From: a virus
Length of the DNA: 53,321 bases
Virus record (IMG/VR): IMGVR_UViG_3300047470_000144
Location: 1-53,321 of that record
Direction: 5' to 3' (one strand)
Shown: in pieces, positions 11,895-53,321 of the stretch
Position numbering within the stretch: the first letter of the stretch is position 1
Layout: each line of letters begins with the position of its first letter
The notes under the pieces: model-generated
Told to the model about the DNA's origin: nothing
Databases searched by the model: none
What the model saw: only the letters and a program-made list of their open reading frames with translations
Translations under genes and position numbers: made by a program

Positions 11895-11952
11895 TGCAGA
11901 TGAATGCGCAGGCTGATGCGCGAATCGTGAGAGCGAGAGGATTGTCAGCATG

Positions 11953-12044
11953 TGATGGGCTGGACTATGCAAGGTGATGTCACCGGGCGGTATCCAATCC
12001 TTCCGTATGGCGCGGGTTCGATTCCCGCCCCATCGCAAGATGGG
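11953..12044 (+). ncRNA. tRNA-like structured element B with alternative hairpin
   Basis: Acceptor-like TGATGGG (11953-11959) pairs with CCCATCG (12029-12035). A perfect T-arm (GCGGG TTCGATT CCCGC, 12012-12028) and a D-arm-like GAC/GTC with an AAGG loop are present, but no 7-base anticodon loop with T33 fits and there are about ten extra bases. The 3' acceptor strand can instead form a 6-bp hairpin with a GCAA tetraloop, CCCATC GCAA GATGGG (12029-12044). Confidence 0.5.
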
Positions 12045-27116: not shown

Positions 27117-29927
27117 ATGACACAAGACATTGCCAGCCTTGGGATCAAGGTAGAAACCGGTGACGTAGCCAAGGCGTCAACCGAACTTGACGGCCTGACG
27201 CAGGCCGGTGCGAAGGCGCAGAAGGCAACGGAAAGCCTTTCTACCGAGAGCAAGAAGGCTGGCGCATCCATCAAGGCTATGGCGGCCGAGACGAAAGCGG
27301 CTGAGGCTGCTGCTGCCAAGCTTGAAAAACAGACAAATGCAACTGGCCTGTCAGCTAAGCAAACTGCTGCCGCGCTGCGTGGTGTGCCGGCACAGGTCAC
27401 GGACATCGTTACGAGCCTCCAGGGCGGGCAAGCTCCACTTACGGTTCTCCTTCAGCAAGGTGGACAACTCAAGGACATGTTCGGCGGGATTGTCCCTGCC
27501 GCGCGCGCACTCGGCGGTTACGTTGCTGGCCTGATCAACCCATTCACCCTAGCTGCTGCTGCGGCTGCGGCGCTCGGTCTTGCATACTTCAAGGGCAGCG
27601 AAGAGGCGACGGCTTACAACAAGGCGCTGATCCTCACCGGTAACGCTGCTGGCACCAGTGGCGACCAACTCGCATCCCTCGCGGAACAGGTGTCGTCAAC
27701 GGTTGGCACCACCGGTGCCGCTGCTGAGGTGCTGGCAAAGCTGGCTGGAAACGGCAAGATCGCCGGCGAAAGCTTCGGCGAGATCGCCACGGCCGCGATC
27801 GAGATGGAAAAGGCCACGGGCAAAGCGATTGATGAAACGATCGCTGAGTTCGCCAAGATCGCCAAGGACCCGGTCGCTGCTGCGAAAGAGCTGAACGACC
27901 AGTACAACTTCCTGACTGCCTCGGTCTATTCGCAGATCGTTGCGCTGAAAGAGCAGGGCGATACCATCGGCGCGGCCAAGCTGTTGACGGACGCCTACGC
28001 GGACACCATCAAGACCCGCACGGCTGACGTGACTGCCAACCTCGGGCTTATCGAGAGCGCCTGGAAGAAGGTCAAGTCGGCTGCTGCTGGCGCGCTTGAT
28101 GCAACGCTTGATGTTGGCCGTACCCAGTCGATCGATGCGCAGATTGCCGAGCGCGAGAAACTACTTGCCTCGCGCAAGGATGGATTTCTCGCAAACCTGT
28201 TTCCCGATACGCTCGGCGCAAACAGCGAGTCGACAAAGTTCATCGAGGGACAGGTTGATGCTCTCAAGCGCGCCAAAGTCCAGATCGAAGCCAATGCCAA
28301 GGCTGAAGGCGATCGCGTAAAAGTCCAGAAGGAAGGGATTGATGCGTCGATCAAGCTCAAGGCAATCAGCGATGCCAACCTCACCAACGAGGAAAAGCGC
28401 AACAAGCTGATCAAAGAATACAAGCGCGAAGTCGAGGCGCTGCGCAAGGCGGACCCCAACAGCCCGCTGGTTCAGGCCGACGTCGTCGCCAAGAACATCC
28501 AGAACATCAAGGACAAGAACAAAGATCCGGCTGCGAAGCCTGGCCGCGTCAACCTGACCGACGTCAACGACGCTCAGAACGCAATCAAAGCTATTCAGTC
28601 GGCCTACTCCAACTCTGAGAAAGAACTTGAGGCGCAGCAGAAGGCTGGCCTGATCTCGCAACAGAGCTACCTTGACCAGCGCACCGCGTTGATCAGGGCG
28701 GAGCGTGAGGAGGTCACTGGGGCCTACCAGTCGCAGATATCGGCACTGGAGACTCTGAAGGACAAGTCCAGCACGACTGGCGAGCAACGGATCCAGCTTG
28801 ACCAGAAGATCGCCGATGCCCGCGCCAGCATGGTCAAGGCGCAGAAGGATGCCGACAGCCAGCTCAATATTCTGTCCATCAATGAACAGGGCCTGGTCAA
28901 GGCTCAGACTGCCGCCTCGGAAGCGTATGTTGCTCAGCTTGAGCGGCAACGCGCCGCGCTCGAAACATCCGGTACGCGCGCTGCAAATAGTCTTGGCCTT
29001 GGTGATCGACAGCAGGGGCTGCAAAACAGTCTCGATGGGGCGACCGACAAGTTCAATGAAGAGCGCGCCAAGCTGCTGGATCGCCGAAGGACGGCCCCAG
29101 ATAAATACAGCATGGATGCGTACCAAAAGGATTTGGCTAGTCTCCAGACGGCGGAAGACCGCTACCGAGAAACTGTCATTGGCAACTACGACAAGATGTC
29201 AGCAGCGCAATCAAACTGGCAAGCAGGAGCTACTTCAGCATTCGCAAACTACCTGGAATCCTCAAGGGACGTTGCCGGTCAGACCAAAAGTCTGTTCACA
29301 AATGCCTTCAGTTCCATGGAAGACGCCATTGTCCAGTTCGCCATGACCGGCAAGCTGTCGTTCTCTGACTTCGCCAAGTCCGTATTGGCCGATATGGCCA
29401 AGATCGCCGTTCGACAAGCCAGCTCTTCGGCACTCAGCGGGTTGTTCGGCATCGTTGCAAACGTCGCCAGCTCTTATTTCACCGGTGGAAGCGGGAATGG
29501 GTTGGCAACTGGTTCGGCTGGAGCAACGTCTTCAAACCTTGGGGCTTCGCAGGCTGGATATTCAGCGCCTTATTTCCAGGCAAAGGGCGGCGCTTGGCTC
29601 GGCGGCGTGCAGATGTTCGCCAATGGCGGAGCGTTCTCCAATAGCGTGGTAACCCAGCCTACTGCTTTCGCCATGGGCAATGGTGGACTAGGTGTTGCTG
29701 GTGAGGCCGGACCGGAAGCGATCGTTCCTCTGGCTCGCGATTCACAGGGTCGCTTAGGGGTGCGGGGCGGTGCTGGAAACTCCAGCACGATCAACGTAAG
29801 CGTGACTGTGGATGCAACTGATGGCGGCGGTGCAACACCAAATCCTGCGCGCCTGGCCGAGGCTATCAAAGTTGTGTGCCGTCAAGAAATTGCCAACTCT
29901 CGCCGAAATGGCGGTCAACTTGCTTAA
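27117..29927 (+). CDS. Tail tape measure protein
   Basis: A 936-residue protein. An N-terminal coiled coil is followed by AAALRGVPAQVTDIVTSLQG with QAPLTVLLQQGGQLKD, a Pfam-type tape measure domain. A hydrophobic segment lies at about 128-160 (ALGGYVAGLINPFTLAAAAA), with long coiled coils through residues 230-700 and a C-terminal glycine-rich domain (FANGGAFSN, GEAGPEAIVPL). Its length sets the tail length, roughly 140 nm by the usual 1.5 angstrom per residue (family rule). Confidence 0.93.
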   Translation: MTQDIASLGIKVETGDVAKASTELDGLTQAGAKAQKATESLSTESKKAGASIKAMAAETKAAEAAAAKLEKQTNATGLSAKQTAAALRGVPAQVTDIVTSLQGGQAPLTVLLQQGGQLKDMFGGIVPAARALGGYVAGLINPFTLAAAAAAALGLAYFKGSEEATAYNKALILTGNAAGTSGDQLASLAEQVSSTVGTTGAAAEVLAKLAGNGKIAGESFGEIATAAIEMEKATGKAIDETIAEFAKIAKDPVAAAKELNDQYNFLTASVYSQIVALKEQGDTIGAAKLLTDAYADTIKTRTADVTANLGLIESAWKKVKSAAAGALDATLDVGRTQSIDAQIAEREKLLASRKDGFLANLFPDTLGANSESTKFIEGQVDALKRAKVQIEANAKAEGDRVKVQKEGIDASIKLKAISDANLTNEEKRNKLIKEYKREVEALRKADPNSPLVQADVVAKNIQNIKDKNKDPAAKPGRVNLTDVNDAQNAIKAIQSAYSNSEKELEAQQKAGLISQQSYLDQRTALIRAEREEVTGAYQSQISALETLKDKSSTTGEQRIQLDQKIADARASMVKAQKDADSQLNILSINEQGLVKAQTAASEAYVAQLERQRAALETSGTRAANSLGLGDRQQGLQNSLDGATDKFNEERAKLLDRRRTAPDKYSMDAYQKDLASLQTAEDRYRETVIGNYDKMSAAQSNWQAGATSAFANYLESSRDVAGQTKSLFTNAFSSMEDAIVQFAMTGKLSFSDFAKSVLADMAKIAVRQASSSALSGLFGIVANVASSYFTGGSGNGLATGSAGATSSNLGASQAGYSAPYFQAKGGAWLGGVQMFANGGAFSNSVVTQPTAFAMGNGGLGVAGEAGPEAIVPLARDSQGRLGVRGGAGNSSTINVSVTVDATDGGGATPNPARLAEAIKVVCRQEIANSRRNGGQLA

Positions 29928-29936
29928 GGCGGAATC

Positions 29937-30266
29937 ATGCTGACCTTCACATGGGTGCCAACCTATGAATCGACCATGACATTTACGCCAAAGGCAAGGG
30001 TCATCAAATTCGGGGAAGGCTATGAATTGCGGCAAGGTGACGGCATCAACCGTAGCCCACGGTCCTACTCACTTGTATTCAAACGAGTTTCATCCGAAAT
30101 AAACGCCATCGACATGTTCTTGTCTGCGCGCGGCGCCGTTGAGGCATTTTTTTATACACACCCGGGGCGAGTTGTTGGCGCGTTTGTGTGCCGTGAATGG
30201 GTAAGGACAAACGTTGCAAGGGGCGTGGACAGCATCGCCGCGACTTTTGAGGAGGTTTACGAATGA
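29937..30266 (+). CDS. Minor tail protein M-like
   Basis: A 109-residue protein of the lambda gpM-like minor tail family: MLTFTWVPTYES, RVIKFGEGYELRQGDG, and AFVCREWVRTNVARGVDSIA near the end. It is part of the tail-tip complex that caps the tape measure. A close paralogue forms the N-terminus of the gene at 36878. GCGGAATC lies before the ATG, and the end overlaps the L-like gene by four bases. Confidence 0.88.
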   Translation: MLTFTWVPTYESTMTFTPKARVIKFGEGYELRQGDGINRSPRSYSLVFKRVSSEINAIDMFLSARGAVEAFFYTHPGRVVGAFVCREWVRTNVARGVDSIAATFEEVYE

Positions 30267-30955
30267 CTGCGCTAGAGGGCCAGCTATCACTGGCGACCGG
30301 CTTAAGCATCTGGGAGGGCTTTGAATTGGTTCTCCCGGATCAAACTATCCGGTTCCACAAGGGTGTCAGTGAAAATCTAGGATCGGTCTTTTGGCAGGGT
30401 GAGCCGTACAGTCCATGGCCAATCAATGCCTCTGAGTTTTCCACCCCAAGTCAAGGATCTCCAGCGCGGCCAAAACTGCAGGTTGGCAACTTCGGCGGCA
30501 CTATCTCTGCCCTGTGCCGTCAATACGAAGACCTTCTCGGAGCTACGCTGCGACGTCGCCGCACCCTGGTAAAATACCTGGATGCTACGAATTTTGCCTC
30601 TGGGAATCCAACGGCAAATCCAGCCGAGGAGTACCCAATAGAAACCTGGATAATCACCAGGAAGGCCCACGAAAATCCATCTGCGATCGAGTTCGACCTT
30701 GGCTCCCCCTTGGACTTGCATGGAGTAAAATTACCGCGTCGCCAGGTAGTGGCGGGCACATGCCTTTGGGCCTATCGCTCGGGAGAGTGTGGGTACGCTG
30801 GAGGGCCTGTTGCTGACCGCCTGAATAATCCAACCAGTGACCTTGCAGCCGATCAATGCAGCAAATCCATAACTGGTTGCAAGTTGCGCTTTGGCGTGTA
30901 CGGGGAGCTTCCTTTTGGCGGATTCCCAGGTATCGCCAGTGTGCCGAGGCTTTAA
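30263..30955 (+). CDS. Minor tail protein L-like
   Basis: A 230-residue protein. The N-terminal domain (LSIWEGFELVLPDQTIRFHK) and the C-terminal cysteine-rich domain (TCLWAYRSGECGYAGGPV, ADQCSKSITGCKLRFG) match lambda gpL, whose C-terminal cysteines hold an iron-sulfur cluster. Four cysteines are present here in the right order. It forms a hub ring of the tail tip. Confidence 0.9.
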   Translation: MTALEGQLSLATGLSIWEGFELVLPDQTIRFHKGVSENLGSVFWQGEPYSPWPINASEFSTPSQGSPARPKLQVGNFGGTISALCRQYEDLLGATLRRRRTLVKYLDATNFASGNPTANPAEEYPIETWIITRKAHENPSAIEFDLGSPLDLHGVKLPRRQVVAGTCLWAYRSGECGYAGGPVADRLNNPTSDLAADQCSKSITGCKLRFGVYGELPFGGFPGIASVPRL

Positions 30956-30956
30956 A

Positions 30957-31688
30957 ATGAGCGATCTGATTAAGCAGTGTAAGGCGGACGCTGAAGCTCA
31001 TGCGCTCGCTGAGTACCCGCGCGAATCCGTCGGCTTGGTAATAAGCGTTCGCGGCAAGCCGCGTTATGTGCCATGTCGGAATATTTCGGAGGAGGCTGAC
31101 CACTTCATCCTTCATCCAGAGGATTATGCGGCGGCTGAGGATCTTGGCGATATTGCAGTCATCATCCACTCTCACCCGGATGCCGGGCCAGAGCCAAGCA
31201 TCCACGACATGGCAAGCCACGCGGTCAGCCGGACAGCCTGGTGGATTGTGGGGATAATGGACGGCCAGACCTCATGGCATGAAATGCCAGCAGCAGGAGA
31301 ACTTCCGCTGGAGGGTCGCGTCTTCGTCCACGGTGTCATTGATTGCTACACACTGGTGCGGGATTACTACCGTCAGGTGCTCGGCATCACGCTGTTGGAC
31401 TTCCACCGCAAGGATGACTGGTGGCATAACGGCGAGAACCTGTATGTCGACAACTTCGAGAGGACCGGGTTTGTGTCGGTGGCCACTCCTGAGGAAGGCG
31501 ACCTGATTGTCATGGCAATCGGTAGCCCGACACCATGTCATGGCGCGATCTGGCTGAAGGGAGATGTAATCTTGCACCACCTTTACGGGCGCCTTAGCTG
31601 CAAAGAGGTGTATGGCCGGTCTTATCGCGAGTGTACGACACATATTCTGCGGCACCGCGATATGATGAGGACCTGCTATATCGATTGA
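30957..31688 (+). CDS. Tail assembly protein K-like, JAMM + NlpC/P60
   Basis: A 243-residue two-domain protein. The N-terminal JAB/MPN domain has Glu23 (PRESVG), His71-x-His73 and Asp84 (HSHPDAGPEPSIHD), the full JAMM zinc site. The C-terminal NlpC/P60 domain has Cys130 (VIDCYTLVRDYY) and His195 (CHGAIWL). Lambda gpK has the same layout. The peptidoglycan-cutting half probably helps tail passage or is used during tip assembly. Confidence 0.92.
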   Translation: MSDLIKQCKADAEAHALAEYPRESVGLVISVRGKPRYVPCRNISEEADHFILHPEDYAAAEDLGDIAVIIHSHPDAGPEPSIHDMASHAVSRTAWWIVGIMDGQTSWHEMPAAGELPLEGRVFVHGVIDCYTLVRDYYRQVLGITLLDFHRKDDWWHNGENLYVDNFERTGFVSVATPEEGDLIVMAIGSPTPCHGAIWLKGDVILHHLYGRLSCKEVYGRSYRECTTHILRHRDMMRTCYID

Positions 31689-31749
31689 ATAGGCCCTGTA
31701 TTGCATGCGTGTTACCTGTTAGATTCGCCAAAACCCTTGGAGGATCTGT

Positions 31750-32085
31750 ATGCGGAACGCTCTTGTTGCATTGGCGCTGGCTGCTTTGGTCGGCTGCACG
31801 ACTACCGGGTTACAGGATCAGCCGCCGGCTTACTCTGGGTCCTCTCAAAAGACACCGCAAAACCTCGCGCGCTGCCTAGCGCCCAAGTGGCAGGAGATAA
31901 ACTCAGCTACCAGTTCGGTTGAGACGCAAACGGGATACAAGATCGCCGTGCCGTCTCTGTTCGCTGGAACCATAGCTCTCGCCACCATCGACGGCAGCGC
32001 ATCAGGCTCCACCGTCAGAGTGTTCCTTCCATCCGACTGGGCCGGGACTCAGGGGTGGAAGGATGCTGCAAAAACCTGCACCTAA
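31750..32085 (+). CDS. Phage lipoprotein, possible superinfection exclusion
   Basis: A 111-residue protein with a clear lipoprotein signal: MRNALVALALAALVGC, lipobox LVGC with Cys16. The rest is a small soluble domain with two further cysteines (ARCLAPKWQEI and KTCT). GGAGG precedes the ATG, there are 60-base gaps on both sides, and it has its own terminator. Lipoproteins in this position can act like Cor of phi80/T5-type systems by blocking the receptor; that is inference. Confidence 0.75.
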   Translation: MRNALVALALAALVGCTTTGLQDQPPAYSGSSQKTPQNLARCLAPKWQEINSATSSVETQTGYKIAVPSLFAGTIALATIDGSASGSTVRVFLPSDWAGTQGWKDAAKTCT

Positions 32086-32101
32086 CCACATCAATTTGTA
32101 A

Positions 32102-32126
32102 AGGCCGCCTACGGGCGGCTTTTTAT
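32102..32126 (+). terminator. Terminator after lipoprotein gene
   Basis: A GCCGCC/GGCGGC stem with flanking A-T pairs and TTTTTATT. It isolates the lipoprotein as a separate unit within the tail genes. Confidence 0.75.
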
Positions 32127-32141
32127 TGCCTGGAGAAAAAT

Positions 32142-32753
32142 ATGGCCGCTGCCATGACCACCATTTTGCTATCCGGCAGCTTGGCAAAGAAGTTCGGCCG
32201 CGAGCATTCCAGGATGCTCGAAAGTGGCTCGGTACAAGAAGCCTTCAGCGCACTCAAGCACACCCTTGAGGGCTTTGCTGATTTTGTAGCCGACCTGTCA
32301 AGACGCGGTACGAAGTTTGCGATTTTCCGCAATCGAGAAAACGTTGGAGTCGATCGTCTCACGATGAGCGGGGCTTCTGAGATCCGTGTTGTTCCGGTAA
32401 TCGTGGGCAGCAAAAGCGGAGGGTTGCTGCAGACAGTGCTCGGGGCTGTATTGATCGTTGTCGGCGTTGTTGTAACGGGAATGAGCTTTGGTAGCGCCGC
32501 TCCCGTTGGTGCCGCCTTGATTGGGGTTGGCATCGGCATGGTCGCTGGCGGCATTCTTCAAATGTTGTCGCCCACGCCTAAGGCCCCATCACAGGAGGAT
32601 CAGGGTGCGACTGAGAATAAGCCTAGTTACCTGTTCAACGGCGCTTTCAACTCTACACAGCAGGGCGTTCCGGTGCCCGTGGTTTACGGCCAGATGCTGG
32701 TCGGATCGAGCGTCGTATCCGTCGGCACATGGTCAGAGGCGATCCCCGTATGA
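32142..32753 (+). CDS. Tail assembly protein I-like
   Basis: A 203-residue protein starting MAAAMTTILLSGSLAKKFG. A ubiquitin-like N-terminal half is followed by a glycine-rich hydrophobic segment (LGAVLIVVGVVVTGMSFG to GVGIGMVAGGILQML) and a C-terminal GVPVPVVYGQMLVGS motif, all as in lambda gpI. GGAG lies upstream. It overlaps the J gene by four bases. Confidence 0.9.
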   Translation: MAAAMTTILLSGSLAKKFGREHSRMLESGSVQEAFSALKHTLEGFADFVADLSRRGTKFAIFRNRENVGVDRLTMSGASEIRVVPVIVGSKSGGLLQTVLGAVLIVVGVVVTGMSFGSAAPVGAALIGVGIGMVAGGILQMLSPTPKAPSQEDQGATENKPSYLFNGAFNSTQQGVPVPVVYGQMLVGSSVVSVGTWSEAIPV

Positions 32754-35700
32754 GCGAAGTAATCGTCGGTCGCAAGGGTGGTGGTGGGAAAGGCGGCGGA
32801 AGCAGCGGCACTGCTCGCACGCCAATCGAGGCGCCAGACAGTCTTCGATCCAAGCAGCATGTGCAAATTCTGCATGCGCTTTGCGAGGGCGAGATTGAGG
32901 GCATTCCCTACGGTGATATGGGGATTTTTTTTGATGATGTACCACTTCAAAATACTGATGGGACTTACAATTTCTCTGGCGTAAAGGTTGATTTCCGCGC
33001 CGGCACCCAGTGGCAGTCTTATATCCCGATCGCTGGCCTTGAGGCAGAGCAGACTGTCGGTGTCGAAATGAAGTACATGGTCGCCATTGAGCGGGCGATC
33101 ACTGACACCGATGTTGATGCAATCAGAATCACTGTGAGTGTGCCCCAGCTTTCAACGCAGGACGTAAAGCTTGGCGATATGAACGGATCAAGAGCCGACT
33201 TCAGGGTTGAAGGCAAGCTGGGGTCTGGCTCTTGGAGCCTGCTGTGTGCAGATATCGCTATTGGCGGCAAAACGATGAGCCGCACCCAGTTTTCGTACCT
33301 GATTCGTCTTCCTGCATCTGGCGGGCTGCCGCGCTACGTTCGCCTTACCCGCCTGACCGCCGACGCGGTCAGCCAGGCCACGCAAAACAGAACATTCTTT
33401 GATAGTTTGACCTGGATTTGGGATGAGAAGCTTCGCTACCCAAACACCGCTATGGTTGGCCTGTCGCTGGATGCTCAGCAGTTTTCCACCATTCCTCGAA
33501 TGGCCTTTATGGTGCAAGGAACTAAGGTCCTTGTCCCGGTTAACTATGACCCTGTGACCAGGGTCTACACAGGATCATGGGACGGCACATTCAAGCGCGC
33601 GTGGTCTGATAACCCGGCTTGGGTGTGGTACGACATGCTGACCAATACCCGGTATGGGCTGGGCGGTCTTCTCGACTCGACCATGATCGATAAATACGCG
33701 CTGTACAGCATCGCGCAATACTGCGACGTCTTGGTCCCTAACGGCTATGGCTCTGGCGGTTTAGAGCCAAGATTCACTTGCAATTTGGCACTTATGACGC
33801 AGCAGGATGCATGGAAGCTGGTCAACGACATGGTGTCGGTTTTCAGGGCAATCTGTTTTTGGGCTGGCGGCACCCTTACAGCCGTTCAAGATGCGCCGAG
33901 ATCGAGCCGCTACCTGTTCAATAACGCAACAGTGGTGGGTGGTGAGTTCGGCTATCAATCCGTAGCGTCTGACCAGCGCTTCAACGTCGCAGCAGTTACA
34001 TGGAACAACCCATTCCAGCAGTACAAGCAGTCTGTAGAAGTTGTTGAGCGTCAGGATCTTATCGCCAAGTGGGGACGAATTCAGCAAAACGACGTTATGG
34101 CGATCGGATGCACATCTCGCGGGCAAGCCAACCGGCTTGGGCGCTGGATTTTGTACGCCGAGAGTGAGGCGGTTACATTTGCAGTCGGCGCCGATGGCGC
34201 CATACCTATGCCAGGTGATGTCATCGATATTGCCGATGCAAACCGGGCCGGTGCGCGTAATGGAGGCCGTATTTTGGCCGGCAGTACCGCGTCAACCTTG
34301 CTGCTTGACGGGCCGGTCGGGTTCGGCGACACCGGGGTGATCAGTGTCATCCTGAGTGATGGCAGCTTGGCGACAAGGACTGTGACCGTAGCTACAGGCG
34401 CCACCTCCGTCAGCGTGTCTCCGGCGTTGTCTCCGGCACCTCTTGCCTCGGCCCCGTGGGCCTTTGCCTCTGCCAGCCTGGATACTCAGAAATTTCGCAT
34501 TATCGGAATTACCGAGGGTGATGACGGAACATACGCTATTAATGCCATTGCCTTTGACCCGGACAAATTCGATCAGGTCGACTTTGGGACGCCAGACATC
34601 GATGCCCCGATCAGCATCGTTAATTTCGGCGCACCCAATCAGGTAGGGGATTTGACTTTCACAGAGTCTCTTTATGAAACCGGTGGAGGATTGGCGGCGG
34701 CAAGGCTCACTGTAAGCTGGACACCGCCAGCGCGCGCCATGCGCTACCAAGTCCAAGTGCAGAAGCCTGGCTCAAACTGGGAGGATATCGGCGATGTTAC
34801 GACGCCAAGCATTGATTTTGATGCTGCCTCCTACGGCTATTGGTCTGTCCGGATCACTCCCGTATCAGCCCTCGGGTTGACTGGTGCTGCATCGCAAAAG
34901 AGCTACCTAGCTCAGGCTCTGGCAGCCCCTCCCGCCGAACTGAACGGGCTTCGGCTGGATGCCATCAATAGCGTTGCTACGCTGGCGTGGGAGCCAGCCC
35001 CTGAACTGGATGTGAAGTTGGGCGGCGCCATCAGTATCAGGCACTCGCGCAATTTGGGCGCCACTTGGTCGGCCGCACTGCCATTATCCGACGTAGCAGG
35101 GCGCTCGACTTCTGCCGTTGTCGCGCTGCTGCCAGGCAAATACATGGTTCGCGCAGTCGACTCATCCGGAAACGGGGGGCCAGTCAAAGAGGTCTGGTCA
35201 GACGCCCAGGTCCCACTTCCTGCCAACGTATTTGTGACGCTTAGTGAGTCTCCGGGTTTCCCTGGGGTTGCCACGAATGCTTCTGTAGTGGAAGGCATCC
35301 TCAAGCTCTCTGGCGCCGACTTGTTCGACTCTCTGACAGATGTTGATGCGATGTATGTCGACCTCGACAAGATGGGCGGCTCACTGCCAACCATGTCTTA
35401 TCGGTTTGCTGCTCCGCTGGATCTTGGCTATGTCTACGACAATCGTCTGACCGCTTATGTCGAGGCGTCGATCTATACGGATAGCCTGTATATCGACTCC
35501 GTTCTAGATTTCGATGCTTTGGCGTCAACTGACGGCGATCCTCCGAATGGCGCAACGCTTTCGCTATGGGTCAGGACTTCTGATGTCTCGCCTGCGGTTT
35601 GGTCAGACTGGAAGCCGTTTGTGGTCGGCGACTACCGGGCTCGTCAGTTCGATTTTGAATTGCGCGGGGCGGTATCTAGCGTCACCGACTGGATTGATGT

Positions 35701-35965
35701 CTCGACCCTGCAGGTCGTGGTTGACATGCCAGATCGGGTTGAAAGCGGGAATGACATTTCCGTTCCGGTCGGCGGTCTTGCAATCACGTACAGCCCTCCA
35801 TTTAAAGCCAACCCAGCGGTCAGCCTGACGGCTCAAGGCTTGTCGCCAGGCGATTACCTGGACGTGTCATCCAAGACGGTGACTGGTTTCACGGTCTTCA
35901 TTCGAAATTCAAGCGGTGTCGCCCAATCCGGCAGATCGATTGACTACATCACCAAGGGATACTGA
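32750..35965 (+). CDS. Central tail fibre / host specificity protein J
   Basis: A 1071-residue protein. The N-terminal half matches lambda gpJ: GKGGGSSGTARTPIEAPDSL, EGEIEGIPYG, and WIWDEKLRYPNTAMVGLSLD. Fibronectin type III-like domains lie at about 640-830 (LTVSWTPPARAMRYQVQVQK). The C-terminal 250 residues should include receptor-binding parts. The tip trimer contacts the cell surface and helps set host range. Confidence 0.93.
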   Translation: MSEVIVGRKGGGGKGGGSSGTARTPIEAPDSLRSKQHVQILHALCEGEIEGIPYGDMGIFFDDVPLQNTDGTYNFSGVKVDFRAGTQWQSYIPIAGLEAEQTVGVEMKYMVAIERAITDTDVDAIRITVSVPQLSTQDVKLGDMNGSRADFRVEGKLGSGSWSLLCADIAIGGKTMSRTQFSYLIRLPASGGLPRYVRLTRLTADAVSQATQNRTFFDSLTWIWDEKLRYPNTAMVGLSLDAQQFSTIPRMAFMVQGTKVLVPVNYDPVTRVYTGSWDGTFKRAWSDNPAWVWYDMLTNTRYGLGGLLDSTMIDKYALYSIAQYCDVLVPNGYGSGGLEPRFTCNLALMTQQDAWKLVNDMVSVFRAICFWAGGTLTAVQDAPRSSRYLFNNATVVGGEFGYQSVASDQRFNVAAVTWNNPFQQYKQSVEVVERQDLIAKWGRIQQNDVMAIGCTSRGQANRLGRWILYAESEAVTFAVGADGAIPMPGDVIDIADANRAGARNGGRILAGSTASTLLLDGPVGFGDTGVISVILSDGSLATRTVTVATGATSVSVSPALSPAPLASAPWAFASASLDTQKFRIIGITEGDDGTYAINAIAFDPDKFDQVDFGTPDIDAPISIVNFGAPNQVGDLTFTESLYETGGGLAAARLTVSWTPPARAMRYQVQVQKPGSNWEDIGDVTTPSIDFDAASYGYWSVRITPVSALGLTGAASQKSYLAQALAAPPAELNGLRLDAINSVATLAWEPAPELDVKLGGAISIRHSRNLGATWSAALPLSDVAGRSTSAVVALLPGKYMVRAVDSSGNGGPVKEVWSDAQVPLPANVFVTLSESPGFPGVATNASVVEGILKLSGADLFDSLTDVDAMYVDLDKMGGSLPTMSYRFAAPLDLGYVYDNRLTAYVEASIYTDSLYIDSVLDFDALASTDGDPPNGATLSLWVRTSDVSPAVWSDWKPFVVGDYRARQFDFELRGAVSSVTDWIDVSTLQVVVDMPDRVESGNDISVPVGGLAITYSPPFKANPAVSLTAQGLSPGDYLDVSSKTVTGFTVFIRNSSGVAQSGRSIDYITKGY

Positions 35966-35967
35966 AT

Positions 35968-36831
35968 ATGTCGCAACATGACTTTAATATCGCAAACGGC
36001 CCGGGGGCGACCTTTCGGGGCGACTTGAATAATGCCTTGGCCGCATTGGCGTCTATGAGCAGCGGCGCGACAGCTCCATCCCCAACCTTTGCCTGTCAGA
36101 TGTGGGCCGATACCGGAACTGGGCGTATTCGGCGCCGGGATAGCGGGAATACGTTTTGGATCGATCTCGGTCCAATCAACCAGAATGCAACAGGCCAACT
36201 GATTGCAGTTCGTGTCTTTGCCGCTGCAGGCAGCAGCACCTATACACCAACTGCAGGCACAAACTCTGTTATTGCTGAGGTGCAAGGAGCTGGCGGTGCA
36301 GGGGCTGGTGCGCCAGCAACTGGTGCAGGCAACGGATCGCTGGGAAGCTCTGGCGGTGCCGGGGCTTACGCCATAAGCTTTTTCAGTACAGGGTTCTCCG
36401 GTGTAACCATCACAGTTGGAGCTGGCGGAACCGGTGTTTCTGGCGCGGCGGGTAACGTCGGCGGCACCTCTTCGTTTGGTGGGCTTATTAGCTGCCCTGG
36501 CGGCAAAGGTGGAAATACGGCGGGGCCTTCCTCGGGGGCATTTTTTGCATTCACCGGGAACAGTAACGCGGCAACAGGCGGGAATTTGTCGTCAAATGTT
36601 GGCGCAGGAGGTGCATTTTCTATCTGCCTCAACTCTGGCAGCCTAATCGCAGGCCCAGGCGGCGCATCGATGTTCGGTCCCGGCGCAGTTCCATCAGGGA
36701 TTGGCGGCACCGGCATTGCTTCTGGCTCATACGGCTCTGGCGGCGCAGGGACCATTCAGGTGGCCAGTGGATCTGCTGCAACTGGCGGTGCCGGGGCCAA
36801 TGGCATCGTGCGGGTTTGGGAGTACAGCTAA
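35968..36831 (+). CDS. Glycine-rich tail fibre protein
   Basis: A 287-residue protein. The first 100 residues are an attachment domain (MSQHDFNIANGPGATFRGDL). Residues about 105-280 are glycine-rich (GAGGAGAGAPATGAGNGSLG), ending ANGIVRVWEYS. Such glycine-rich domains form polyglycine-helix adhesins at fibre tips in other phages. It is probably a side or terminal fibre working with the J protein. Confidence 0.8.
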   Translation: MSQHDFNIANGPGATFRGDLNNALAALASMSSGATAPSPTFACQMWADTGTGRIRRRDSGNTFWIDLGPINQNATGQLIAVRVFAAAGSSTYTPTAGTNSVIAEVQGAGGAGAGAPATGAGNGSLGSSGGAGAYAISFFSTGFSGVTITVGAGGTGVSGAAGNVGGTSSFGGLISCPGGKGGNTAGPSSGAFFAFTGNSNAATGGNLSSNVGAGGAFSICLNSGSLIAGPGGASMFGPGAVPSGIGGTGIASGSYGSGGAGTIQVASGSAATGGAGANGIVRVWEYS

Positions 36832-36877
36832 TGGAACGAGTCCCAGGCCGGATTAGTTTGGCGATGGGGGCGGCATC

Positions 36878-37813
36878 ATGCTGACATTTGCATGGGTTCC
36901 AACCTACAACTCAAACAAAACAGTAAAACCTGAAGTCAAGGTTATAAAGTTCGGTGATGGCTATGAACAAAGACAAGGTTCAGGACTGAACCGTCAGCCT
37001 CGAACCTACAATTTGAGTTTTCAGCGTACATCCTCAGAGATTGACGCGATCAGCTCCTTCCTTTATTCGCGCGGCGCCGTAGAAGCCTTCAACTACGTAC
37101 ACCCTGGCAGCCCTACTGGGACATTCGTTTGTCGGAGCTGGGTGCGGACTAATGTCGCACGCGGCGTCGACCGCATTGAAGCAACATTCGAAGAGGTTTA
37201 CGACGCCATGGTAGTAGTTGCGATGTATGGGGATTCGACGACTTTTGGCGCCGAGCTTCTTCCGAGCGGGAAATGGATTAAATCGCTCAGTAACGTGCCC
37301 GCCGTCATACAAAGCAAATACTCAGGCGGGGTCACTGTCCTGAATAAAGGTATCAGCGGCGTAACCATGCCGCAGATGGTGATTGGTGCCTATCCGGCAA
37401 CTAAGACCTGGGCGCAGGAAATGGCGGAGTCGTATGCCAATATCGTCGTTCTCAACTTTGGTATCAATGATGCCAACACGGTTTGGGAGGACGACTACCA
37501 AATCAACTATTACGCTACTCAACTCATTGATATTGCTCAGGCTCATGGGAAAATTGTCGTTATCGAAACTCCAAATCCTGTCAATACGCCGCTCTACACT
37601 CGCCTGTCTCAGGTTGCGTATGTGATCAGAACGCTGGCTCAGTCTAGATCGCTGACATTGGCAGATCATCACCTCTGGATACAGACCGGGCTGCCAAGCT
37701 GGGAGACGTATCTTCCCGATGGAATCCACCCAAATGCAGCACTTTATACCTACAAGGCAGATTCCCTCTACAGCGTGCTTAACCCAGTCGTTCAAAGCCT
37801 GATAACTCATTGA
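36878..37813 (+). CDS. M-like tail protein fused to SGNH/GDSL hydrolase
   Basis: A 311-residue fusion. Residues 1-109 are a close paralogue of the M-like protein at 29937, even sharing the GCGGnATCATGCTGAC start region. Residues 113-311 are an SGNH hydrolase with all catalytic blocks: Ser120 (YGDSTTFG), Gly158 (NKGISG), Asn197 (NFGINDAN), and Asp281/His284 (LPDGIHPN). The natural reading is an esterase or deacetylase docked on the tail tip through the M domain, acting on surface polysaccharide. The substrate is unknown. It lies between the fibre and fibre-assembly genes. Confidence 0.88.
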   Translation: MLTFAWVPTYNSNKTVKPEVKVIKFGDGYEQRQGSGLNRQPRTYNLSFQRTSSEIDAISSFLYSRGAVEAFNYVHPGSPTGTFVCRSWVRTNVARGVDRIEATFEEVYDAMVVVAMYGDSTTFGAELLPSGKWIKSLSNVPAVIQSKYSGGVTVLNKGISGVTMPQMVIGAYPATKTWAQEMAESYANIVVLNFGINDANTVWEDDYQINYYATQLIDIAQAHGKIVVIETPNPVNTPLYTRLSQVAYVIRTLAQSRSLTLADHHLWIQTGLPSWETYLPDGIHPNAALYTYKADSLYSVLNPVVQSLITH

Positions 37814-37826
37814 TATGGAGAATTAA

Positions 37827-38246
37827 ATGAAGAGCTACGCAAGAATTTGCGAGGGTCAGGTGCAGGAGATATTTGCCACCGATCTCGATATCACGCAGAT
37901 GTTCCACCCTGATATGATTTGGGTGGACATTACAGCGCTTGAGCCGGCACCGGTGGTTGGATGGTCGGCTATTGAGTTGCCGGATGGCTGGCAGTTTGAA
38001 AAGCCAGTTGCGATTATCCCAACCAATGCAGAATTGATCTTGTCATCCATGGTTGAGCGAGATGCACGCCTTGATGCCGCCGACGAAGCTACGGCGGGGA
38101 TGGCTGATGCTTACATCGCTGGCCTCTTGGAGGCTGAAGATGTTGCGAAGTTCAAAGCATTTGCTGCTTATAAGCTCGCCCTGAACAAGATCGATAAGCA
38201 GCCTGGATATCCACAAACAATCGCGTGGCCAATGCTGCCGCAATAA
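37827..38246 (+). CDS. Tail fibre assembly protein
   Basis: A 139-residue protein of the Tfa/caudo-TAP type: an N-terminal domain (MKSYARICEGQVQEIF), a middle with PDGWQF, and a C-terminal helical region ending FKAFAAYKLALNKIDKQPGY, KIDKQPGYPQTIAWPMLP. It helps fold or attach fibres and presumably serves the preceding fibre or fusion gene. GGAG lies upstream. Confidence 0.85.
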   Translation: MKSYARICEGQVQEIFATDLDITQMFHPDMIWVDITALEPAPVVGWSAIELPDGWQFEKPVAIIPTNAELILSSMVERDARLDAADEATAGMADAYIAGLLEAEDVAKFKAFAAYKLALNKIDKQPGYPQTIAWPMLPQ

Positions 38247-38257
38247 CGGAGAGAATC

Positions 38258-38344
38258 ATGCCTATCACCGCGCAGCAACTGCTGCAGATCCTCCCGAACG
38301 CCGGCAAACAAGCCGGCGTTTTTGCGTCTGCGCTAGGCGACTGA
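38258..38344 (+). pseudogene. Remnant of GH19-type endolysin N-terminus
   Basis: A 28-codon frame with a good GGAGAG ribosome site reads MPITAQQLLQILPNAGKQAG and then VFASALGD. This is the usual opening of Pseudomonas phage GH19 (chitinase-like) endolysins, from memory of that family. It stops at 38344, where the reverse-strand HNH gene begins to overlap. The bases encoding NAGKQAGVF form a perfect terminator. It may be a remnant, or a leader kept for the terminator. Confidence 0.6.
38297..38324 (+). terminator. Terminator within the endolysin remnant
   Basis: A perfect 9-bp stem AACGCCGGC/GCCGGCGTT with a 6-base loop and five T residues. It ends the tail operon just before the HNH gene coming from the other strand. 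Confidence 0.88.
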
Positions 38345-39064
38345 CCTTCGATCCTTCCGAAGGTATGACTCCCTGTCCCTGCGCGACGGCAGCCGGTCGC
38401 TCTGGGTGACTGCCAGCTCAATGGGGATGCCGGCCTTGATTCGATAGTGGGCTGTGGTGAGCTTCACTCCGAAGTGCCTACATGCGTGGCCGATGCTGTT
38501 GAAGAGGACGCCGTCGATCTCAATTTTTGTCAGGCCTCGACGGTTCTCGGCGCCTTGCTCCTGGACAGTTGCCCATCGGCAGTTGCCGGGAGAGTAGTCC
38601 TTGTTCGACTCTTTGCGGTCGATGCTGTATTGGCCAGCAGGACGCGGACCCATGTCTTCCAGGAAGTTTTCGAACGAGTGCAGCCAGCGCTCACAAACCC
38701 TGATGCCGCGCCCGCCCCAGTTTGGGTAATCCTTGAATTTCTCGTCGTAACACCTGCGCTTCATTCCCAGCCAGGTTTTGTATTCGACCGAGACCTTTCC
38801 TCTGCGCTTGTGTCCGTGGGTTACCGATCGTTCGGCGCGAATTTTGATGAAGTCCCGGTTGGCGCCCATGGATGACGCCCATTCGGACAATAAGCATCCG
38901 CAAGACTTGGTTGCTCCGCTTCGTAGACCCTTCGAGTTAATTGCCGACTCCTTCCCGCAATCACAACGACACAGCCACATCGACCCACCGTTAGTAGCCA
39001 CTCCTGCATAGCCGATTACGAACAGACGGCCATAGCGAAGCCCGGAAATATCAATCCGTTTCAT
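38333..39064 (-). CDS. HNH homing endonuclease-like protein
   Basis: A 243-residue protein on the minus strand inside the rightward late operon. A zinc-ribbon N-terminal part (WLCRCDCGKESAINSKGLRS, SCGCLLSE) is followed by YKTWLGMKRRCYDEKFKDYP and the nuclease region GQYSIDRKESNKDYSPGNCR, ending with an AP2-like tail. AGGTG six bases before the ATG at 39064 sets the start. Its reverse direction and location between two endolysin sequences mark it as a mobile insertion. Confidence 0.85.
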   Translation of the reverse strand: MKRIDISGLRYGRLFVIGYAGVATNGGSMWLCRCDCGKESAINSKGLRSGATKSCGCLLSEWASSMGANRDFIKIRAERSVTHGHKRRGKVSVEYKTWLGMKRRCYDEKFKDYPNWGGRGIRVCERWLHSFENFLEDMGPRPAGQYSIDRKESNKDYSPGNCRWATVQEQGAENRRGLTKIEIDGVLFNSIGHACRHFGVKLTTAHYRIKAGIPIELAVTQSDRLPSRRDRESYLRKDRRSVA

Positions 39065-39095
39065 TTGCACACCTATATGTATGGAGGACGGCCTG

Positions 39096-39590
39096 ATGGC
39101 AGTCGTTAGCGAAAAAACAGCTGGGAGCAGAAACGCGATTGCGTTCCTGGATATGCTTGCGTGGTCAGAAGGGACGTCGACGAGCAAATACACCCGTGAC
39201 GATGGGTACGACGTTGTAGTTGGCGGGATGGACAGCCCGAACACGTTTGGCAGTTACGCCGATCACCCGGGCATTCTGGTGTCGGTCAACAAAGCCGGAC
39301 TAAAGTCGACGGCGGCAGGCCGCTACCAGCTGCTGAAACGCTGGTGGACTGCCTACCGGAAATCGCTCGCGCTGAAAGACTTCTCGCCACTGAGCCAGGA
39401 TCTGGTGGCGCTCCAGCAGATTCGTGAGCGTTCGGCGCTGGCCGATATCCATGCTGGGCGAATTGAGTCGGCGATCGAGAAGTGCTCGAACATCTGGGCA
39501 AGCCTTCCCGGGAACACCTATGGACAGCGCATGCACAAGAAGGAAGACCTGCTTGTGCGCTTCGTGTCGCTGGGCGGGGTGGTGGCATGA
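39096..39590 (+). CDS. Endolysin, lambda gpR-like (GH104)
   Basis: A 164-residue lytic transglycosylase. AIAFLDMLAWSEGT carries the catalytic Glu25; GYDVVVGG, LKSTAAGRYQLLKRWW and NIWASLPGNTYGQ are close to lambda R. It cuts peptidoglycan once the holin opens the inner membrane. GGAGG eight bases upstream favours the ATG at 39096 over one at 39081. It overlaps the spanin by four bases. Confidence 0.93.
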   Translation: MAVVSEKTAGSRNAIAFLDMLAWSEGTSTSKYTRDDGYDVVVGGMDSPNTFGSYADHPGILVSVNKAGLKSTAAGRYQLLKRWWTAYRKSLALKDFSPLSQDLVALQQIRERSALADIHAGRIESAIEKCSNIWASLPGNTYGQRMHKKEDLLVRFVSLGGVVA

Positions 39591-40590: not shown

Positions 40591-40625
40591 AGGCCCCGAG
40601 CGCATTTTGCCTCGGGGCCTTTTTG
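40591..40625 (+). terminator. Terminator after the tRNA-Ser end
   Basis: A perfect 10-bp stem AGGCCCCGAG/CTCGGGGCCT with a 10-base loop and a T-run, eight bases after the CCA. It probably supplies the terminator of the host tRNA after integration and may be part of the identity block. Confidence 0.88.
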
Positions 40626-40703
40626 CATTTGGTTGTAGATTGGGGGAAATCGGGGGGAATGGCTTCTCTTGCGATTCCCCCAAGCACCCGCCAATATTCC
40701 GGA

Positions 40704-41681
40704 ATGGCCTCTTACGAAAAGCGCGGAAACGCATGGCGGGCTCAAATCCGCCGAAAGGGATACCCACACCTCAATGCAACCTTCGACACCAAGGCAGAAG
40801 CCCAGCGATGGGCCGCCGAGATCGAGGGTGACATGTCGCGCTCGCGATTCGTCGACACGCGCGAGGCGGAAAGCACCACGCTTGAAGAGGCGCTGACCCG
40901 ATACGTCAACGAGGTGAGCGAGTCGAAGAAAGGGTCTGCGCAAGAGAAGGTCCGGGCCAAGAAGTGGCAGAAGTCGGAATGGGGCGCCAAGTCTCTGGCC
41001 GCGATCCGCTCCAGCGACATGGCCGCGTACCGCGATGCCGAGCTGAAGGCCGGTAAGTCCACGGCAACCGTTCGGCTCAATCTCGCACTGATAAGCCACC
41101 TCTATACCGTCGCAGCGAAGGACTGGGGCATCCAGGGGCTGAAAAACCCGTGTACTGCCATCCGCATGCCGAAGGGCAGCAAGCAACGTGAACGCAGGCC
41201 GACCACCGCCGAACTGAAAGCGCTGTACAAGTACGCCGCAGAGATCAATGCCGAGTTGCCGGTCATCATTGAGCTGGCAGTAGAGACGGCAATGCGCCGC
41301 TCAGAGCTGGTCATGCTGCGCAAGGATCAAATCCGGGGGAGGGTTGCCTTCCTCGAAGACACGAAGAACGGCGAGCGCCGATCCGTTCCGCTATCGAAGC
41401 GGGCGGCGGAACTCTTGGAGGGATTGCCGACGCCGATCGACGGCGGCAGGTTCTTTCACTTGAAGCTGGACAGCGTGAGCAACTATTTCGCGCTGGCGTG
41501 CGAGGCGGCGAAGATCAAAGACCTCCGCCTTCACGATATGCGCCATGAGGCGACAAGCCGCCTGTTTGAGCGTGGCCTTTCGTTGATGGAAGTGGCGAGC
41601 ATCACCGGGCACAAGACCTTGGCAATGTTGCGCAGATATACTCATTTATGCCCCAACGATCTCGCCGAAAAACTCGGTTGA
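40704..41681 (+). CDS. int: Tyrosine integrase
   Basis: A 325-residue phage integrase. The N-terminal arm-binding domain (MASYEKRGNAWRAQIRRKGY) and core-binding domain are followed by a catalytic domain with Arg198 (ETAMRRSEL), Lys221 (DTKNGERRSVPL), His277 and Arg280 (LHDMRHEA), His303 (ITGHKTLAML) and Tyr312 (RRYTHL). The ATG at 40704 is chosen because upstream candidates (TTG 40623, ATG 40659) lie within the arm sites. It is adjacent to attP, reading away from it, and meets the leftward operon tail to tail with a 36-base overlap. Confidence 0.93.
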   Translation: MASYEKRGNAWRAQIRRKGYPHLNATFDTKAEAQRWAAEIEGDMSRSRFVDTREAESTTLEEALTRYVNEVSESKKGSAQEKVRAKKWQKSEWGAKSLAAIRSSDMAAYRDAELKAGKSTATVRLNLALISHLYTVAAKDWGIQGLKNPCTAIRMPKGSKQRERRPTTAELKALYKYAAEINAELPVIIELAVETAMRRSELVMLRKDQIRGRVAFLEDTKNGERRSVPLSKRAAELLEGLPTPIDGGRFFHLKLDSVSNYFALACEAAKIKDLRLHDMRHEATSRLFERGLSLMEVASITGHKTLAMLRRYTHLCPNDLAEKLG

Positions 41682-42152
41682 TCTGATTCGCTTCTCCGAC
41701 AAATACCACTCAGTAGCTTCCTTCGAGGAAAGGAATCCGGCCTTTTCGTACCTGGTGCCGCCGATCATAAGCTGCGCCCGGAAACGCTCTCCTCTTTTGG
41801 TTGTGTACGCTGAAGCGCCCTGCGGGATGTAGCTATTCACTGAGTTGAGTGATGGGCTCGCCTCTCGTAGATTCTTCAGTTGATTGTTTGTCCGGCGGCA
41901 GTCGCGGTGATCGATCTGCACTCCGCACTCAGGGCCCCACCGCCCCGTGCATAAGAAATAAACGACATGGTGGCAATAAACCTTGACCCTGACCCCTGGC
42001 ACTGTCACCGCCATGTAGCCATTTTTCATTAGATGCCCGACTGAGCTGCCAGCAGCTAGACGGTTACTGGCGATAAGCCGAAATACGCCTCCGGTTTCCG
42101 GGTCGCAACCGAAATGCTTTGTCACTGCATCTTTGATTTTTTCGTATCCCAT
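41646..42152 (-). CDS. HNH endonuclease-like protein at end of leftward operon
   Basis: A 168-residue protein. The central YCHHVVYFLCTGRWGPECGV, QIDHRDCRRTNNQLKNLREA block is a phage HNH motif, followed by an AP2-like DNA-binding tail (RFRAQLMIGGTRYEKAGFLS). The ATG overlaps the stop of the excisionase-like gene (TGATG). The 3' end overlaps the integrase gene by 36 bases, tail to tail. Confidence 0.85.
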   Translation of the reverse strand: MGYEKIKDAVTKHFGCDPETGGVFRLIASNRLAAGSSVGHLMKNGYMAVTVPGVRVKVYCHHVVYFLCTGRWGPECGVQIDHRDCRRTNNQLKNLREASPSLNSVNSYIPQGASAYTTKRGERFRAQLMIGGTRYEKAGFLSSKEATEWYLSEKRIRSTEFFGEIVGA

Positions 42153-42403
42153 CACGCCACCCCGCGCAGCGTCGGCGGCGCCTGTCGCTTCCTGCCAGCC
42201 TTTGGCGCCTTGTTCACCCCATCCCGACATCCCCGCAAGAACTCCCGCACGTCTTCCCTTAGCCAGCAATGCCGGCTCCCCATCTTGAAGCTCTTCGGCA
42301 GCCAGTCGACCCCACGGCTCAGCCCCTGCCGCACCGCCGCTTCCGTGCGGCCGAGCATCCGCCCCAATCCCTCGATGTAGATAATCTCGGCTTCATCACC
42401 CAT
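42152..42403 (-). CDS. Excisionase-like HTH protein
   Basis: An 83-residue protein of AlpA/MerR-like winged-helix type: EGLGRMLGRTEAAVRQGLSR followed by KSFKMGSRHCWLREDVREFL. This helix-turn-helix plus wing layout is typical of phage excisionases. Position at the far end of the pL operon, next to integrase, supports a role in excision. Confidence 0.7.
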   Translation of the reverse strand: MGDEAEIIYIEGLGRMLGRTEAAVRQGLSRGVDWLPKSFKMGSRHCWLREDVREFLRGCRDGVNKAPKAGRKRQAPPTLRGVA

Positions 42404-53094: not shown

Positions 53095-53216
53095 GCGATA
53101 TACCCGCCGGGCATGGTTGTAACGATCTTCCTCGGCGCGTCATGCATCCGACCTTTGGCGCAGTCGTGGACGTCGGGGCGGGGCTTGCGGGGGAGGGGTG
53201 GGGTTGTGCGTTTCAT
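53091..53216 (-). CDS. Small basic hypothetical protein
   Basis: A 41-residue protein, MKRTTPPLPRKPRPDVHDCA then KGRMHDAPRKIVTTMPGGYI. The ATG at 53216 overlaps the stop of the tiny upstream frame. It is Pro/Arg-rich, without a recognised family. Its start lies within the terminal repeat. Confidence 0.55.
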   Translation of the reverse strand: MKRTTPPLPRKPRPDVHDCAKGRMHDAPRKIVTTMPGGYIA

Positions 53217-53321
53217 GGCTGCATACCTTCGTCGGCGATGCTTTGTAGGCTGTCCATCTCGAGCCAATGCGTCAGGCACTGGATCATTCGATCCGCCTCA
53301 TCAAACGCGACTACCTGCCCA
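53195..53321. repeat. Terminal direct repeat, right copy
   Basis: Exact copy of bases 1-127. Joining the ends at this overlap gives a 53,194-base circle and makes the leftward operon continuous from pL at about 2.0 kb through the junction to 41.65 kb. Confidence 0.95.
53213..53287 (-). CDS. Possible 24-residue peptide across the end repeat
   Basis: Also present at 19-93 in the other repeat copy. It reads MIQCLTHWLEMDSLQSIADE then GMQP, amphipathic, with AGGCGG seven bases upstream, and its stop overlaps the start of the next gene by four bases. It is the only link between the gene at 117-311 and those at the right end. Confidence 0.35.
   Translation of the reverse strand: MIQCLTHWLEMDSLQSIADEGMQP

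Follow-up and report, generated by a model that had tools for sequence, protein, structure and literature searches.

A second gpM-type tail-ring domain joined to an SGNH hydrolase domain in a lambda-like siphophage genome

The window, i.e., the whole 53,321-nt stretch of viral DNA analysed here (IMG/VR record IMGVR_UViG_3300047470_000144), carries an exact 127-bp direct repeat at its two ends (1–127 and 53195–53321), which suggests that the phage genome in this record is complete or circularly closed. The phage is a lambda-like siphophage that retains a normal gpM gene, and its tail genes follow the order tape measure, gpM, gpL, gpK, lipoprotein-like ORF, gpI, gpJ, fibre, M-SGNH, and fibre-assembly gene. 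Among the matches listed, the close relatives by gpM/gpL/gpJ (60–83% identity) were viral contigs as well as Pseudomonas moorei and Pseudomonas sp. GM18 prophages, making Pseudomonas the likely host. An endolysin-like ORF (39081–39590) lies downstream of the fibre-assembly gene, and a tyrosine integrase gene is found at 40623–41681. The genome also carries a tRNA-Pro (cgg) gene (11952–12037) and two homing-endonuclease-like genes on the minus strand, one with a weak I-TevI DNA-binding match (38333–39244; antisense to the 5′ part of the endolysin-like ORF) and one with an HNH_3 match (41646–42269). The features of the tail locus are:

27117–29927, + strand: tape measure protein (PF06791, 1.3e-78)
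29937–30266, + strand: ordinary gpM gene (tail-tip ring) of the phage (PF05939, 1.2e-27; TMP-M-L-K-I-J order syntenic in relatives)
30263–35965, + strand: gpL, gpK, lipoprotein-like ORF, gpI, and gpJ (tail-tip context)
35968–36831, + strand: tail fibre gene, immediately upstream of the fusion (phrog_863, 6.8e-44)
36832–37826, no strand assigned: inserted interval of ~995 bp between the fibre stop and the fibre-assembly start, which overlap in relatives
36866–36877, + strand: ribosome-binding region GGGGGCGGCATC, like that before gpM genes (sequence comparison)
36878–37204, + strand: gpM-like (distal tail ring) domain, residues 1–109 (PF05939, 1.4e-29; 69% to the local gpM)
37205–37810, + strand: SGNH/GDSL esterase domain, residues 110–311 (PF13472, 8.2e-17; AlphaFold2; Foldseek)
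37235–37237, + strand: codon of the nucleophile Ser120 in the GDS motif (aligned with TesA Ser10; nearly invariant among SGNH homologues)
37358–37360, + strand: codon of Gly161, the block-II oxyanion glycine (aligned with TesA Gly44)
37466–37468, + strand: codon of Asn197, block III (aligned with TesA Asn73)
37718–37729, + strand: codons of Asp281 to His284, DGIH, block V (aligned with TesA Asp154/His157)
37827–38246, + strand: fibre assembly (tfa/chaperone) gene, immediately downstream of the fusion (PF16778/PF02413)

The M-SGNH gene (36878–37813, + strand) is one open 311-codon ORF encoding a 311-aa protein and, as the initial annotation had placed it, directly follows the fibre gene and precedes the fibre-assembly gene. 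In four syntenic relatives (L009, L011, L016, and L018), the stop codon of the fibre gene and the ATG of the fibre-assembly gene overlap (GGGAGTACGCATRATGAAAACC), whereas the two are 995 bp apart in the window, and the M-SGNH gene is thus best described as a clean insertion. The sole contents of this interval are the gene and its ribosome-binding site, and the flanking genes were all retained. The gene is located within the late tail operon, 6.6 kb from gpM, and no promoter of its own was found above chance. Elsewhere in this operon, the gpK/gpI interval contains a small ORF (31750–32085) with a signal peptide and an apparent lipobox (MRNALVALALAALVGC...), which matches phrog_914, has no Pfam match, and is present in several relatives; it is a candidate superinfection-exclusion lipoprotein or tail-operon moron.

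Both halves of the encoded protein were recognized by profile searches. Residues 3–108 match Phage_min_tail (PF05939, the lambda gpM family; 1.4e-29, 103 bits against a curated cut-off of 39), and residues 117–290 match Lipase_GDSL_2 (PF13472; 8.2e-17), with a junction of only ~4 residues (DAMV) between the two domains. The M half (residues 1–109) aligns without gaps to the local gpM (29937–30266) at 69% identity (E 4e-56), and this significant alignment bears out the resemblance that had been read from the sequence alone. A sequence search against solved structures returned lambda gpM (8iyk, 1.3e-8) for the N-terminal part. No signal peptide was found in the fusion protein. An ordinary gpM, such as the one resident in this phage, has ~109 residues in a single domain and is encoded between the tape measure and gpL genes; the fusion, with 311 residues and a site between the fibre and fibre-assembly genes, departs from this description in both length and location.

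To define the catalytic residues, the enzyme half was aligned with E. coli TesA, whose reference sequence was confirmed at the published catalytic positions. SGNH blocks I, II, III, and V are all intact, comprising Ser120, Gly161, Asn197, Asp281, and His284. The catalytic set originally proposed was therefore correct for Ser120, Asn197, Asp281, and His284, whereas its Gly158 is replaced by Gly161 (N-K-G-I-S-G) as the oxyanion glycine according to the TesA alignment.

Structures of the two halves were predicted in separate AlphaFold2 runs, with SGNH homologues in one alignment and gpM homologues in the other, because MAFFT misaligned mixed sets of M and SGNH sequences, placing the KFGDG motif against GDS. 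Each domain was modelled well from its own alignment, and no confident single AlphaFold2 model spanning both domains was obtained. The SGNH half reached pLDDT values of ~90 or more across most of residues 111–310, a confident model of the expected SGNH fold, and showed a flavodoxin-like alpha/beta fold that Foldseek matched to many SGNH enzymes with a probability of 1.00. The top Foldseek matches were carbohydrate acetylesterases (Est24 of Sinorhizobium, 3.7e-10), and such enzymes, including Est24 and Axe2, are neighbours of the enzyme half in both fold and profile. With gpM rows aligned, the N-terminal half was modelled as gpM, with a beta-sandwich, E-loop, and one helix, and matched lambda gpM (8iyk; E 1.3e-9, TM 0.88 over the target) and, with a TM of 0.80, the T1 tail-tip homologue (9l9p). 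The Pfam matches and predicted folds together confirm that a second gpM domain and a complete SGNH hydrolase are present in one protein.

The M half was originally explained as a direct duplication of the phage's own M gene, a claim that did not hold. Identity between the M half and the local M (63.9% nucleotide, 68.8% amino acid) is no higher than that to the M genes of other phages (up to 66.7% nucleotide and 68.8% amino acid), and in the tree the M half falls outside the clade of 21 sampled orthologs with moderate support (80/88). A recent duplication of the local M is ruled out by these two results; because the M half is no closer to the local M than to those of others and lies outside the ortholog clade, it would stem from an old duplication or have come in from a related phage. 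The similar bases noted before both ATGs do exist, as a matching ribosome-binding region of ~12 nt, but a similar form precedes gpM in relatives, and the match is weak evidence of duplication, although it would fit an M gene that was copied along with its ribosome-binding site. Regardless of its source, the M half is well conserved. It keeps 43 of the 50 residues that are invariant in 20 orthologous M proteins (resident M: 44 of 50), and its synonymous sites are saturated while dN is ~0.25, which indicates that it evolves under purifying selection and is not decaying. This conservation argues for a docking role and favours the earlier suggestion that the M part serves as a dock.

The enzyme half has a different affinity. 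It clusters with high support (100/99) with SGNH proteins of Burkholderia-type prophages, phage Magia, and Pantoea plasmids, most of which bear a signal peptide and lipobox; in these exported or lipoprotein relatives, the export leader occupies the position that is taken by the gpM domain in the fusion. In other phages, related SGNH domains are carried by tail fibres or spikes, and the enzyme half is placed apart from the tail-fibre/spike SGNH domains sampled in the tree, which left out the G7C and Klebsiella proteins. Judged from this placement, the enzyme half derives from an exported/lipoprotein esterase lineage and not from a tail-fibre lineage. Because its nearest relatives are exported envelope esterases, an ancestral non-virion role of the enzyme half is possible. 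Several of the exported SGNH esterase genes, in prophages or phage Magia (L213, L222, and L225) and on a Pantoea plasmid (L217), adjoin Acyl_transf_3 genes; such neighbours may represent an acylation/deacylation pair for surface polysaccharide.

As the initial annotation had proposed, we searched for other M-SGNH fusions and found none in the collections searched, and the fusion was seen in one genome. There was no second M match in the 21 closest related whole records, and 161 loci, taken with their flanks, contained neither a second M ORF nor any M ORF with a long extension at its C-terminus. In 399 genomes from the genus to which Pseudomonas moorei belongs, M and SGNH were not joined at any one listed place. 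Fusions were likewise absent from collections of phages and plasmids searched at a coverage of at least 80% and, among the matches listed, from protein searches of viral and genome contigs and from two junction-pattern scans of viral contigs. These scans catch close motifs only and the matches are those listed, and the rarity of the fusion is therefore not proven. No report of an SGNH-bearing gpM or Dit was found in the open-access literature.

On balance, we consider it fairly probable that the fusion is a virion-associated carbohydrate O-acetylesterase that is mounted on the tail through its second gpM ring domain. M-SGNH subunits would be built into the hexameric distal-tail ring alongside gpM, or would stack on this ring, and the C-terminal enzyme would lie outside the ring, where the Dits of other siphophages hold their peripheral domains. 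There, it may strip O-acetyl groups from a surface polysaccharide (O-antigen, capsule, or exopolysaccharide), allowing the fibre and gpJ to reach their receptors; alternatively, the benefit could be reversible enzymatic binding to the surface polysaccharide. The acetyl-ester specificity is a guess taken from the nearest folds of the predicted model, because the SGNH superfamily also spans other activities. Its members include lipases, thioesterases, and phosphodiesterases. With regard to the substrate, we infer that it would be O-antigen or capsule. A narrower proposal, which we advance tentatively, is that gpM and its enzyme-bearing paralogues form one heteromeric hexamer whose composition sets the number of polysaccharide-modifying enzymes on the tail, and that an exported envelope esterase was recruited with gpM replacing its leader.

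Three other explanations were weighed, and all are weaker than the ring-mounted esterase. A virion-borne M-SGNH protein could dock off the gpM ring, for instance by forming a ring of its own or an adaptor that sits on gpJ/gpL or on the thin fibre encoded by the adjacent gene, which would place the enzyme in the fibre complex. The gene lies 6.6 kb from gpM and is flanked by the fibre and fibre-assembly genes, and M-like folds recur at several tail-ring positions; both points are consistent with such an arrangement. However, because the M half keeps nearly all of the residues conserved in ring-forming orthologs, the same contacts as in those orthologs are indicated, and no adaptor partner was identified; off-ring docking is thus unlikely.

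The high-support grouping of the enzyme half with SGNH proteins that are exported or are lipoproteins, from Burkholderia prophages and Pantoea plasmids, several of which adjoin Acyl_transf_3 genes, would also be expected of an esterase that never enters the virion, and that alters the host surface in the lysogen or at lysis (lysogenic conversion or release from debris), with the M domain as a recombination relic. This scenario appears improbable, given that the fusion has no signal peptide and carries the M domain in place of a leader, that the M half is under purifying selection, and that the gene forms part of the late tail operon, with no promoter of its own above chance. A chimeric assembly or an isolated, non-functional recombination product would account for the occurrence of the fusion in a single genome, among the matches listed, and the source is an IMG/VR-type virus record. 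Nevertheless, we regard an artefact as very improbable because the junctions are clean, the 311-codon frame is intact and preceded by a ribosome-binding site, the flanking genes are kept, all catalytic residues are present, the M half is strongly constrained, and the contig is closed by its 127-bp terminal repeat.

If the ring-mounted esterase is correct, a lambda-type tail ring can be decorated, or built of mixed subunits, while the original gpM gene is kept. The fusion would then offer a small, genetically tractable test of how far siphophage tail rings tolerate heteromeric subunits, and it bears on how phages gain carbohydrate-active functions outside their fibres.

In lambda, six gpM subunits form the ring that connects the tail tube to gpL/gpJ (PMC10721106), and gpM has been described as a Dit reduced to the ring domain alone (PMC7291167). 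The N-terminal 109 residues of the fusion share family and fold with lambda gpM (8iyk) and the T1 homologue (9l9p). These two proteins consist of the ring domain only and are encoded once, beside the tape measure gene, whereas the fusion is a second copy in the fibre region that carries a 200-aa enzyme. The Dits of SPP1, T5, p2, TP901-1, and 80alpha hold C-terminal domains at the ring periphery, where evolved Dits add carbohydrate-binding modules (PMC7291167), and evolved Dits or their modules aid adsorption to exopolysaccharide-bearing hosts (PMC10688798). Like the Dits and evolved Dits of SPP1, T5, p2, and lactococcal and Lactobacillus phages, the fusion pairs a ring domain with a carbohydrate-active module that faces the surface, and the position of this module is probably the same. 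In contrast, the Dit extensions are galectin/OB folds or CBM insertions on the only Dit of the phage, whereas the fusion carries a C-terminal SGNH hydrolase on a duplicate gpM and belongs to a lambda-type phage of a Gram-negative host. It lacks a galectin/OB domain and coexists with a separate, normal gpM; by analogy, the fusion would work like an evolved Dit without being one. An observation on another tail-tip core protein comes from a close relative, a Pseudomonas moorei prophage (L084, 10315–11547), in which gpL contains an in-frame insert of ~170 residues with similarity to the GTA head-spike fibre Rcc01080 (1.2e-7) and also to the tail fibre gp17 of Sf11. This insert is probably a surface-binding domain, and by analogy it supports the general idea of decorated tail-tip proteins in the same phage group.

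With respect to the enzyme, G7C gp63.1 deacetylates LPS, and two Klebsiella prophage receptor-binding proteins with SGNH domains are active as esterases (PMC13123978). Together with the Pectobacterium PP99 protein, these are tail-borne SGNH esterases whose known or predicted target, as proposed for the fusion, is an O-acetylated surface polysaccharide. They are built on fibre or spike scaffolds, whereas the anchor of the fusion is the ring protein gpM, and the N-terminal fibre or spike anchor of a tail-fibre esterase is absent. The Tal proteins of 80alpha and phi11, with a C-terminal SGNH domain, likewise place an SGNH hydrolase on a core tail-tip protein; there, the carrier is the single-copy hub protein of a Gram-positive phage, and here it is a gpM paralogue. 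Closest to the enzyme half are the SGNH esterases of Burkholderia prophages (phage Magia), which are exported or are lipoproteins and in some cases lie beside acyltransferases; they are envelope proteins with a signal peptide or lipobox where the fusion has a tail-type gpM domain. SGNH esterases carried on tails are thus already known, as are decorated tail rings, and what is new in this phage is the placement of an SGNH domain on a duplicated gpM.
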